A stretch of DNA of 33,503 nt from a virus: the IMG/VR virus record IMGVR_UViG_3300045747_000353, positions 1-33,503 of that record. One strand, given 5' to 3'. A program made the position numbers and the translations under genes. The notes under the pieces were generated by a model, which saw nothing but the letters and a program-made list of their open reading frames with translations, was not told where the DNA came from and searched no databases. This document shows, piece by piece, positions 2,428-32,181 of this stretch (position 1 is the first letter of the stretch; each line of letters opens with the position of its first letter).

Positions 2428-2552
2428 TGGTGGCGACCCAGGGATTCGAACCCCGACTCCGTCCTGATAATGGAAGTGTATTTGTAGTGCGGAAAACATC
2501 CTTGCCAGGATGCGCTTTTTTACTACGTGTGCTACCGTTACACTAAGTCGCC
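2428..2552 (-). tRNA. Interrupted tRNA, probably Ile(TAT), with ~49-nt insertion after the D arm
   Basis: The ends form a good tRNA: acceptor GGCGACT/GGTCGCC, D arm GTGT...GCAC, T arm CGGGG-TTCGAAT-CCCTG, discriminator A and encoded CCA. The gene is 125 nt long. If about 49 nt after position 26 are removed, an anticodon arm with loop ATTATCA (TAT) remains. The insertion folds as nested hairpins (GTAGT...ACTAC, CATCC...GGATG). Its AAAAAA..CATCCT and AGGATG..TTTTCCGC parts resemble the flanks of the permuted tRNAs at 4618-5022, in reverse order. It is an intron-like element or a damaged gene. Confidence 0.55.
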
Positions 2553-2562
2553 GAAAAATAAC

Positions 2563-2621
2563 AGGATCAACTTTTATTTTCATTTACAGTGAAATTTTAT
2601 TAAGTTTGCTGAACTGATCCT
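2563..2621 (-). ncRNA. 59-nt tRNA-like element 1 (anticodon-like GTA)
   Basis: The 7-bp outer stem AGGATCA/TGATCCT is followed by the conserved TTCAGCAA, then a perfect 5-bp/7-nt arm TTTCA-CTGTAAA-TGAAA whose loop is identical to a canonical tRNA-Tyr(GTA) anticodon loop. There is no T arm and no encoded CCA; GTTATTTTT follows the stem. It starts five nt after the CCA of tRNA-Val(TAC). Three related copies lie at 4748, 7619 and 7848. Confidence 0.55.
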
Positions 2622-3237: not shown

Positions 3238-3643
3238 TTCAACACTCCGTAGCCGGGATTCTGTTCTATGCTAACATTAATCTATACCAAGTTCAATCAC
3301 TACACTTACCTCCAGCACATTACATTAAGGTAGTTAATTCCGCCCGAATTTTTCAAGGTAATGCAACTAACAAGGAGAGTTGTTAGATCAAACTTAAATA
3401 TTCTCCCCGGGTTTCAATCCGGATCATTGATGCCACAACCCGCACCTATAAGCAAAAGGTTCCCAGGTGCTGTTTGTGTTGCACACTATATCACGGTAGT
3501 ATTAACGAGGATACTGCTACAACCAAAAAGGTCTTAGCCCAACTTTCATCGCAATATTGCTATTCCTTTGAAGTGCCTCTCCTACTCGCCCTTTGCGTGT
3601 GTCCCGAACTTCCTGACTTGCGCCCGTTAGCTCGAATGTTGAA
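3238..3643 (-). ncRNA. rnpB: RNase P RNA (catalytic subunit)
   Basis: This is about 406 nt on the minus strand. The two ends form an 11-bp P1 helix (TTCAACATTCG with CGGAGTGTTGAA, one G bulged). The 5' conserved block reads AGGAAGTTCGGGAC and the 3' block ACAGAATCCCGGCTA, close to bacterial AGGAAAGUCCGGGC and ACAGAAYCCGGCUUA. They pair as P4 with the expected single bulged U. An internal GCACC...GGTGC hairpin fits P12. The product should cleave 5' leaders from pre-tRNAs, using a host or undetected phage protein subunit. It sits among the tRNA genes, and the upstream endonuclease frame ends inside its P1. Confidence 0.87.
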
Positions 3644-4617: not shown

Positions 4618-4731
4618 AGGTTCTGCTTTTAAGTGCTGCCACTACACTAACACAGTGACTAACTCTGTGTCCGGGATTCGAACCCGGCCTCTTCATTTTG
4701 GAGATGATTAATTAATTGCTGTAAAGAACCT
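4618..4731 (-). tRNA. Candidate circularly permuted tRNA-Trp(CCA)
   Basis: The 3' half comes first: anticodon arm with loop CTCCAAA (CCA) at 4692-4708, T arm CCGGG-TTCGAAT-CCCGG, acceptor ACACAGA and discriminator G at 4663. A 6-nt linker follows, then the 5' half at 4632-4656: ACTGTGT, TA and a D arm GTGT...GCAC. ACACAG pairs with CTGTGT across the linker. The outer ends AGGTTCT and AGAACCT are complementary and carry the flanks (ACAGCAA; TTAAAAGC...CCTGTTAT) seen in five other elements. The order D-anticodon is broken at positions 26/27. CCA is not encoded. A normal tRNA-Trp lies at 8075. Confidence 0.7.
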
Positions 4732-4747
4732 AATAGTCAAAAATAAC

Positions 4748-4807
4748 AGGATCAACTTTTTAGTTTGAGAATGAATCAAATTTTATTAAGTTTGCTGAAC
4801 TGATCCT
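4748..4807 (-). ncRNA. 60-nt tRNA-like element 2 (anticodon-like CAT)
   Basis: The outer stem is AGGATCA/TGATCCT and its first 30 nt are identical to element 1. The inner arm differs but still pairs: TTTGA-TTCATTC-TCAAA, with CAT at the anticodon position. No T arm is present. It ends CCTGTTATTTTT. Confidence 0.5.
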
Positions 4808-4812
4808 AAAAC

Positions 4813-4893
4813 TGGTGCTTGCTACGGTTCCCCGTACAGTAAGGCTAACTAGACTATGTCGTCCTTATATGCTACTCTTTACATTAAACAAGC
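4813..4893 (-). pseudogene. Degenerate tRNA or tRNA-like RNA
   Basis: The ends look like a tRNA (GCTTGTT with AGCAAGC, discriminator A, encoded CCA). The T arm is TACGG-GGAA-CCGTA, with a tetraloop in place of a T loop, and the anticodon region is an 18-nt loop closed by TAAGG/CCTTA. It is unlikely to be a working elongator tRNA as read. Confidence 0.45.
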
Positions 4894-4902
4894 GAATAAA
4901 AC

Positions 4903-5022
4903 AGGATGCCTTTTTATTGACGGCTTTCAAGGCCGGTGCTCTACCTTAGAGCGTACTACGCATGGAGCGTGGTGTCGGAATCGAACCAACTGATCATAAA
5001 TGATCGTTGCTGCAAGCATCCT
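4903..5022 (-). tRNA. Candidate circularly permuted tRNA-Ser(TGA)
   Basis: The 3' half comes first: a variable-arm hairpin GATCA-TTTA-TGATC, T arm GTTGG-TTCGATT-CCGAC, acceptor ACCACGC, discriminator T and encoded CCA (4963-4965). The 5' half follows directly: GCGTAGT, D arm GCTC...GAGC, anticodon arm with loop CTTGAAA (TGA). The acceptor strands pair at 6 of 7 positions. The junction falls at the base of the variable arm. The outer stem AGGATGC/GCATCCT and the flanks TTGCAGCAA and AATAAAAAG match the other elements of this family. No ordinary Ser(TGA) gene was found. Confidence 0.68.
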
Positions 5023-5029
5023 AAAATGA

Positions 5030-5203
5030 ATAAGCAGACTGAAATAAGAGTCAAGGGGAATCGAACCCATCATTTCCACCATCCAGGCGCTCTCATGCCC
5101 GTTTCAGTCAGGCTCTGCTTAACTTGGGGGCGTCTGCCGGGTTTGACCGGCGCCTTCGGTCATATACCGACCGATATACTTACTTTATACTAAGCTACCC
5201 ATA
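5030..5203. other. Non-canonical tRNA-like segments
   Basis: Two segments on the minus strand have tRNA parts that do not assemble. Near 5050-5066 is a T arm (ATGGG-TTCGATT-CCCCT), enclosed by an outer stem AGCAGA..CTGAAA / TTTCAGTCTGCT. Near 5126-5203 is a D-arm-like start, a 6-bp/7-nt arm TCGGTC...GACCGA lacking U33, and a T-like arm GCCGG-TCAAAC-CCGGC followed by CCCCCA. They may be further permuted, split or decayed tRNAs. Confidence 0.35.
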
Positions 5204-5207
5204 AACT

Positions 5208-7618: not shown

Positions 7619-7676
7619 AGGATAGCTTTTGTCGCTAGACAACCATAGTTAGCTTTTTGTTTGCTGTAACTATCCT
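7619..7676 (-). ncRNA. 58-nt tRNA-like element 3
   Basis: The outer stem AGGATAG/CTATCCT and the flanks TTACAGCAA and AAAAG..CCTGTTATTTT match elements 1, 2 and 4. The centre forms a TTGTC-TAGC-GACAA hairpin instead of a 5-bp/7-nt arm, so an anticodon is not evident. It follows the CCA of tRNA-Gln by 5 nt. Confidence 0.45.
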
Positions 7677-7847: not shown

Positions 7848-7906
7848 AGGATAGTTTTTACGGTTTCAATTAAAAGTTGAATGTAATTGGTTGCTGAACC
7901 TATCCT
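7848..7906 (-). ncRNA. 59-nt tRNA-like element 4 (anticodon-like TTT)
   Basis: The outer stem is AGGATAG/CTATCCT, followed by GGTTCAGCAACC. The inner arm TTCAA-CTTTTAA-TTGAA is perfect, and its loop equals the canonical tRNA-Lys(TTT) anticodon loop, also found in the Lys tRNA at 180. There is no T arm; the tail is GTTATATTT. Confidence 0.55.
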
Positions 7907-8074: not shown

Positions 8075-8149
8075 TGGCATACCCCCTTGGATTCGAACCA
8101 AGCCTAACGGTTTTGGAGACCGACGTGCTGCCGCTGACACTAGGGATAC
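8075..8149 (-). tRNA. tRNA-Trp(CCA), normal order
   Basis: The acceptor is GTATCCC/GGGGTAT, the D arm GTGT...GCAC, the anticodon loop CTCCAAA gives CCA, the T arm is CTTGG-TTCGAAT-CCAAG, the discriminator is G and CCA is encoded. Its D arm resembles that of the permuted Trp gene at 4618. Confidence 0.9.
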
Positions 8150-8418: not shown

Positions 8419-8492
8419 TGTTAAAGCAGACTAACTAAGCTATGCCCCGTCACTAGATTCAGAGTCTAGTCGTTCGTTAGTCTGCTTTAACA
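8419..8492 (-). ncRNA. Tall hairpin RNA with Gln(CTG)-type anticodon arm
   Basis: A 17-bp perfect inverted repeat (8419-8435 / 8476-8492) encloses CTAGA-CTCTGAA-TCTAG, whose loop equals a canonical Gln(CTG) anticodon loop. GGGGCATAGCTTAGTTAG, resembling the 5' part of a tRNA, precedes the closing strand. No T arm is present. It resembles the 59-nt elements but has a different outer stem. Confidence 0.45.
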
Positions 8493-8640
8493 TGTTTGAT
8501 TTTTCGCTCCACAAGAGGAGTTTCATCCCAAACACCGCCCTTTCGTCCCATGTTTTAAGTGCAGGACCCGGTCTACGTTACCGTACTATATTACACTAAA
8601 CTCACTTTACGCTTCACAGCGTTAAAACTATTGATTAATC
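8493..8640. other. Structured stretch without a recognised gene
   Basis: On the minus strand it has an ACGCT-GTGA-AGCGT hairpin, GAGTTT...AAACTC ends and a CTCC...GGAG hairpin, but no T loop and no CCA where a tRNA would need them. It may be another degenerate or non-standard RNA. Confidence 0.3.
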
Positions 8641-31687: not shown

Positions 31688-32181
31688 GTCTAATCTGTAG
31701 TTAGAAGCGAGCAAAGCTCACTTGAGATGTCGCTTATCGCTCATCTCTTTTATAGAGAGAAGATATATTATCCAGATTCTGGAGTCAGATTTTGCCCTTT
31801 TTACGGGCAAAAAAAATGAAATTATCCGAGTTCCTTTCATCGGTAGCATGTGGCGTGTATAGAGGCGGTCATCCGGTACCTCGAGCCATGATCTTATATA
31901 TGACGGCGGACTGTACATGCAAGCTACCACATATACAGCCGTGGGAGTACTACTCCCTCATTTAGCCTTTGGTGAAACATATTCAAACAGCAAAATCGGT
32001 TGTACGTAGGCGTATCCGATCATCATCCTTGCGGGTAGTTGCTAAGTACTTTTTTTGACCAAAAAGAATTTACTGTCCCCGTGACCCTAGGTCCGGTTAT
32101 CATAGGCACACGGAATAAGCCTGTGCAAGCATCATGTCATAGTTGTTTATTATATAACAAATCTTAAAGTACATGTTTGGT

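Follow-up and report, generated by a model that had tools for sequence, protein, structure and literature searches.

Does the minus-strand segment at coordinates 4618–4731 of this viral DNA encode a tRNA with its halves in circularly permuted order, and is a working tRNA what it gives rise to? The window, by which we mean the whole 33,503-nucleotide stretch that was analysed (IMG/VR record IMGVR_UViG_3300045747_000353), had been predicted to contain a permuted tRNA-Trp gene here, and the permuted order is confirmed: the 3′ half lies ahead of the 5′ half, the two jointly constitute a complete tRNA, and the rotated sequence is called by ARAGORN as tRNA-Trp(CCA), with the same call in 56 of 105 trimmings. 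The 26/27 joint (4632/4708) was correctly placed, the outer ends form a 7 bp closing stem (P1) that covaries in 26 relatives, and an ordinary tRNA-Trp gene is present at 8075 as noted. The acceptor halves also pair, through 6 bp that covary, but the loop between the strands is 9 nt rather than the 6 nt linker proposed. The supposed discriminator G73 belongs, as its first base, to a cap conserved in the family (GUUGGUC in relatives), and thus is probably not a discriminator. In the anticodon arm, positions 27–31 are opposed to 39–43 with A27–A43 unpaired, and a spacer separates this arm from the conserved motif UUACAGCAA (Table 1).

Table 1. Features of the permuted tRNA-Trp-like element, and other RNA elements and tRNA genes in the window.
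Feature	Coordinates	Strand	Evidence or remarks
Element: P1 plus permuted tRNA-Trp(CCA)-like insert	4618..4731	minus	Rotation with ARAGORN, fold, covariation
P1 5′ strand AGGUUCU	4725..4731	minus	7 bp with 4618-4624; covaries, 26 relatives
Conserved motif UUACAGCAA, adjoining P1 5′ strand	4716..4724	minus	The Class I motif of Dictyostelium ends likewise
Anticodon arm AUCAU-CUCCAAA-AUGAA, anticodon CCA	4692..4708	minus	ARAGORN after rotation; helix covaries
V loop	4691-4688	minus	
T arm CCGGG-UUCGAAU-CCCGG	4671..4687	minus	All cells paired in covariation alignment
Acceptor 3′ strand ACACAG	4665..4670	minus	Compensatory change at all six acceptor pairs
Acceptor cap loop AGUUAGUCA, without CCA	4656..4664	minus	Relatives: GUUGGUC
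Acceptor 5′ strand CUGUGU	4650..4655	minus	Covariation
D arm	4633..4647	minus	Covariation
Nucleotide 26	4632	minus	
A-run, adjoining P1 3′ strand	4627..4630	minus	A 84-87% at the family's three core positions among the matches listed
P1 3′ strand AGAACCU, then conserved G of CCUG	4618..4624	minus	G 99% conserved among the matches listed
Second permuted element, tRNA-Ser(UGA)-like	4903..5022	minus	ARAGORN tRNA-Ser(tga) in 105/105 rotated trimmings; fold z -3.9
Short element, anticodon-arm-like hairpin UUUGA-UUCAUUC-UCAAA (CAU)	4748..4807	minus	47.8 bits
Short element, anticodon-arm-like hairpin UUUCA-CUGUAAA-UGAAA (GUA)	2563..2621	minus	56.6 bits
Short element, Lys-type loop CUUUUAA (UUU)	7848..7906	minus	80.5 bits; window copy built into model R1
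Short element, GUCUAGCGAC subtype, without standard anticodon arm	7619..7676	minus	40.6 bits; recurs in other phages
Normal-order tRNA-like gene with CCA	2428..2552	minus	Same core in anticodon region; P1 closed by GGCA
Ordinary tRNA-Trp(CCA) gene	8075..8149	minus	

The fold is maintained in related phages. All five helices covary in the 26 phage relatives of the element, with 104 compensated cells compared to 30 ± 5.6 in shuffles and at most 24 in slid controls, although such controls allow for phage relatedness only in part. Homologous phages thus do not show only random remnants, as compensatory changes keep the permuted fold. A tandem-tRNA artefact, in which the 3′ half of one gene simply abuts the 5′ half of its neighbour, is ruled out by the acceptor-stem covariation together with P1. 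The minimum-energy fold recovers P1 and the T, acceptor, and D arms with a z of only −1.6, and folding energy by itself is weak support for the structure.

The element belongs to a large RNA family with the scaffold consensus UAGGnnnn-UUnCAGCAA ... AAAA-nnnnCCUGUU. Scanning IMG/VR twice, for long and for short inserts (at least 119 stretches each), with a finder requiring nothing other than AGG-N7-CAGCA and a 7 bp P1, identified at least 591 scaffold occurrences, at least 479 of them distinct, from at least 217 viral loci and seven isolated phages; these counts vary with the pattern used and overstate the number of independent events, as many elements come from related phages. All seven P1 pairs are present in 119 of 120 short-pattern phage matches (among the matches listed), whereas 84,980 bacterial and archaeal genomes yielded only 16 short-pattern matches with 3–6 of the 7 pairs each, which we attribute to chance. 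A mobile or genomic bacterial element was rejected on these grounds, there being no match with a fully paired P1. The ends of the core are also conserved in the family, with UAGG and CCUG at the distal end of P1 (G 99%, among the matches listed), and the combination of conserved loop and conserved distal P1 end suggests that a protein binds there or that the RNA adopts a tertiary fold.

Among the matches listed, 485 elements are co-oriented with the nearest tRNA gene and none is in the opposite orientation, with a median gap of 7 nt, and a further 106 elements have no tRNA gene within 300 nt. In Aeromonas phage 4_4572 (locus L239, 75.4–79.9 kb) about eight short elements are clustered in gaps that contain few tRNA genes. 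Unannotated elements occur in isolated phages of Vibrio, Aeromonas, Pseudomonas, Stenotrophomonas, Synechococcus, and Enterococcus. A covariance model built from 55 short copies (R1) gives 78 matches, spread over 23 of the 24 phage records searched (E≤0.001); most of these records had supplied loci, and some had supplied sequences for the model. Model searches added phages KVP40 and Aeh1. T4 gives no R1 match, and its species 1 and 2 RNAs (rnaC, rnaD) were accordingly rejected as family members. No known Rfam family matches above threshold at the elements, and the family is present neither in Rfam 15 nor in the literature covered, outside of which lie many subscription papers and preprints. 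The same incomplete coverage contains nothing on permuted phage tRNAs, phage tRNA introns, or tRNA-mimic decoys, in agreement with the original prediction, which noted no established case of a permuted tRNA gene in phages. The family is apparently new to description.

The scaffold displays several classes of insert, of which lone anticodon stem-loops are the largest; the others include capped permuted tRNAs, cloverleaves lacking an acceptor stem, and tRNA bodies in which the anticodon arm is missing. A strict anticodon arm (5 bp stem, 7 nt loop, and U33) is present in 138 of 239 short elements among the matches listed, compared to 5.6 in shuffles. In 55 short elements P1, a 2 bp helix P2, and the anticodon arm covary, with 153 compensated cells compared to 43 ± 9.5 and a covariation score of 0.469 compared to 0.137 (slid controls ≤0.054). 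Among the long elements listed, ARAGORN finds a tRNA after rotation in 128 of 202, without rotation in four, and in none of 202 shuffled controls, and a permuted parse (T arm, acceptor, short cap, acceptor, D arm) is possible for 101 of the 202, with 64 distinct acceptor stems among these 101 parsed copies. Of normal-order cloverleaves with the scaffold in place of the acceptor stem, 20 among the matches listed pass a loose filter, a few of which are doubtful by eye. tRNA bodies without an anticodon arm are found at L129, L158, L162, and L242, some with CCA inside the cap. There are also rare normal-order copies with the core in the anticodon region and P1 closed by a short loop (window 2428–2552, L105, L129, and isolates).

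Some structured inserts resemble no part of a tRNA (L065, L100, L213, L068, L137, L181, L012, and L139), and several of these contain GGUGAGUUU(C/G)GAUUUCUCAC-like hairpins and stretches of GAGAUAACUUC or GGAGnnUnnnnnCUUUGAAGGU. L147, L149, and L163 have near-identical inserts containing GUCGAGGGGCAAUGCUCGACUGUAAAAUAAACAACUAAACGCCC, presumably reminiscent of the first pseudoknot of tmRNA.

Within the window the motif TTAGG-N4-9-CAGCAA occurs six times, compared to 0.10 expected, always on the minus strand and inside the tRNA array. The second permuted element has the order V arm, T arm, acceptor, UCCAU cap, acceptor, D arm, anticodon arm, and genes resembling the normal-order gene at 2428–2552 are present at L105:4974 and L129:3301. 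A second recurrent scaffold (AAGCAGAGCCUGACUGAAACGGGCAUGA ... UAUUUCAGUCUGCUU) is seen at 5040–5123 (minus) and in L220 with different inserts, and at 8423–8494 a long hairpin (UUAAAGCAGACUAAC ... GUUAGUCUGCUUUAA) has another closing stem and an anticodon arm with the loop CUCUGAA (CUG, Gln). The segments 4820–4898 and 5128–5205 (both minus) are tRNA-like but ARAGORN makes no call, and several stem pairs are mismatched by eye; they are candidates for mimics or for edited tRNAs. The roughly 400 nt at 3238–3640 lack a long ORF and look by eye like a structured RNA, with no Rfam match at E≤3, and a Polynucleobacter-1 RNA (RF01718; 87.5 bits) is located at 31985–32131 (minus). When isolated phages were searched for DNA closely related to the window, only tRNA-region and homing-endonuclease matches came back.

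Processing of the 4618–4731 element into a tRNA is unlikely on this evidence. A permuted gene proper would have both junctions cut and positions 26 and 27 joined, with RNase P and 3′ processing opening the cap to give a working tRNA-Trp, and a complete rotated tRNA with conserved acceptor, T, and D arms is what such a gene would be expected to have. Moreover, in a sister permuted subfamily nucleotides 27–28 are supplied by the 5′ half (23 Watson–Crick cases, compared to a mean of 5.8 and a maximum of 12 in shuffles), as splicing would require, which implies stacking of the body on the anticodon arm; such an arrangement is compatible both with a splicing precursor and with a three-way junction that includes P1. 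However, in the family of the 4618–4731 element the anticodon differs in 19 of 29 pairs with bodies at least 90% identical, and GUA, GAA, GGA, GCA, ACG, UAG, GCG, and CCA are all represented. NCCA is present at the acceptor cap in only 10 of 101 permuted copies, whereas CCA is found in 2897 of 3004 nearby ordinary tRNAs, such that 90% of permuted copies but only 4% of their neighbours lack it, and most caps are just 4–7 nt (all among the matches listed). A tRNA-splicing endonuclease (PF01974) was found in none of 24 phage records, nearly all of which carry an element, with archaeal controls positive and the search confined to the phages, and RtcB is present in one and T4 RNA ligase 1 in three of the 24. 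We therefore rejected splicing by an archaeal-type endonuclease or by a consistent phage ligase, and the exchange of anticodons on near-identical bodies together with the missing endonuclease makes a role in decoding unlikely. An ordinary tRNA-Trp gene is already present, and the same stem and motif hold lone anticodon arms and other inserts unable to become tRNAs, so that the permuted order stands whereas the proposed duplicate under different processing is too narrow a description, given also the scarcity of CCA and the anticodon swaps. We regard a permuted gene proper as unlikely.

The core could alternatively be a small intron or self-circularising ribozyme, with permuted copies giving circular inserts and normal-order copies giving spliced tRNAs. 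The location of the core within the anticodon region of normal-order tRNA-like genes, the free exchange of inserts, and the highly conserved core nucleotides are all as such an activity would have it, but conserved splice-site bases are not evident in the inserts, several normal-order copies are left with no canonical anticodon loop when the core is taken out (and CCA is missing from two), the circle of about 35 nt that short elements would give serves no obvious purpose, and no known ribozyme family in Rfam matches; this is rather unlikely. Quite unlikely too is a ribonucleoprotein similar to those of Y RNAs, with a specific phage or host protein bound at P1 and the internal loop, and a partner recruited or blocked through the tRNA-like part. 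The bacterial Y RNA YrlA (RF02553) similarly has a closing stem that carries a permuted, tRNA-like domain whose acceptor stem is capped, and the conservation of both P1 ends is what a protein site might show, but a Ro60/Rsr (TROVE) gene is present in none of the 24 phage records, and RF02553 gives no match at the elements, only sub-threshold ones over tandem tRNAs. The presence of elements between tRNA genes and always on the same strand (among the matches listed) might also be accounted for if the stems were spacer or processing hairpins of tRNA operons and the inserts decaying tRNA relics. This is very improbable and already contradicted by the covariation, since every helix of two subfamilies has compensatory changes; anticodon loops are conserved too, and some copies occupy gaps where tRNA genes are few or absent (L239).

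Starting from the established fold and its conservation, the same-strand placement in tRNA arrays, the preference for certain anticodons, and the missing CCA, the reading we put forward, with about even confidence, is that these are stable tRNA mimics that serve as decoys for tRNA-cleaving host defences. That the RNAs mimic parts of tRNAs is probable from their sequences; that they act against a defence is a step that could hold or fail in equal measure. P1 joins the two ends of the RNA beside a conserved internal loop composed of UUnCAGCAA opposite the A-run, and the exchangeable insert would mimic one tRNA part, whether an anticodon arm, an entire tRNA that is opened within the anticodon stem and capped at the acceptor, a cloverleaf without acceptor, or a body lacking the arm. 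Such RNAs would presumably persist as they are, unspliced, and could occupy tRNA-binding host proteins, most likely anticodon nucleases and other tRNA-targeting effectors, with real tRNAs thereby being spared in infection; different inserts could answer different effectors.

The displayed anticodons provide a hint as to the target. Those most common on short elements are UUU (28) and UGU (25) among the matches listed, and UUU, UGU, and GUU together account for 60 of 137 displayed arms compared to 304 of 2998 ordinary tRNAs (among the matches listed and ignoring kinship). These correspond to the tRNAs cut by AriB of the PARIS system, which cleaves tRNA-Lys(UUU) and tRNA-Thr(UGU) best and tRNA-Asn(GUU) next (PMC12409363). 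Position 36 is A or U in 122 of 137 displayed arms compared to 55% of the 2998 ordinary tRNAs (among the matches listed); base composition may tilt the displayed set towards AU-rich anticodons. A decoy role alone leaves the strong conservation of the internal loop unexplained, and the normal-order genes bearing the core (2428–2552, L105, L129) look like intron-bearing tRNAs, which counts against it.

If the decoy reading is correct, a large class of unannotated RNAs (at least 591 occurrences, including in the reference phages KVP40 and Aeh1) lies beside phage tRNA arrays, offering a second answer to the purpose of phage tRNA regions and many decoys that could be tested against tRNA-cleaving defences, of the PARIS type and otherwise. 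Permuted "tRNA genes" in phages would be explained without splicing, and the Class I RNAs of amoebae would gain a non-eukaryotic comparison.

The phage elements share features with several known systems. As in the permuted tRNA genes of archaea and algae, the 3′ half precedes the 5′ half across a short linker and the flanks pair, but a splicing endonuclease is absent from the 24 records, CCA is mostly missing, anticodons vary, and the core is common to inserts that are not tRNAs. YrlA has no anticodon arm and in this resembles phage elements without one (e.g. L242), whereas most phage elements carry the arm. The tRNAs of phage T5 evade PARIS as functional, cleavage-resistant molecules (PMC12409363), whereas the phage elements do not appear from sequence to be functional tRNAs.

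The resemblance to the orphan Class I RNAs of Dictyostelium (Rfam RF01414), described as unique to dictyostelids (PMC7919456), is more precise. In both, a stem of variable sequence joins the 5′ and 3′ ends, (CC)UUACAGCAA adjoins the 5′ strand of the stem, and the RNAs begin with (A)AG, end with CUGU, have a variable middle, are about 60 nt long, and are present in many copies. By sequence, the element ends are AAG..CUGU in Vibrio phage BUCT194 and in KVP40, and UAG..CUGU in most others. The last nine positions of the 11-nt Class I motif CCUUACAGCAA match the phage elements (U at 45–78%, A/U, and CAGCAA, among the matches listed); CAGCA belonged to the search pattern, and the model matches in KVP40 and Aeh1 show it too. 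RF01414 itself matches on element sites in several phages, with a best E of 1.2e-5 per genome, but the gathering score of 41.5 is never reached (34.5 bits at best), and matches at E≤0.05 arise in 4 of 14 control genomes as well, so that we regard this as a precise resemblance rather than membership. The phage elements differ from Class I RNAs in adjoining tRNA genes and in carrying pieces of tRNA as inserts, the largest being entire permuted tRNAs. It is conceivable, if improbable, that a single scaffold of closing stem and UUACAGCAA loop is present in phages of many bacteria and in social amoebae, with the tRNA-part decoys of phages disarming tRNA-cleaving immunity and the Dictyostelium Class I RNAs being of the same class and perhaps acting similarly.
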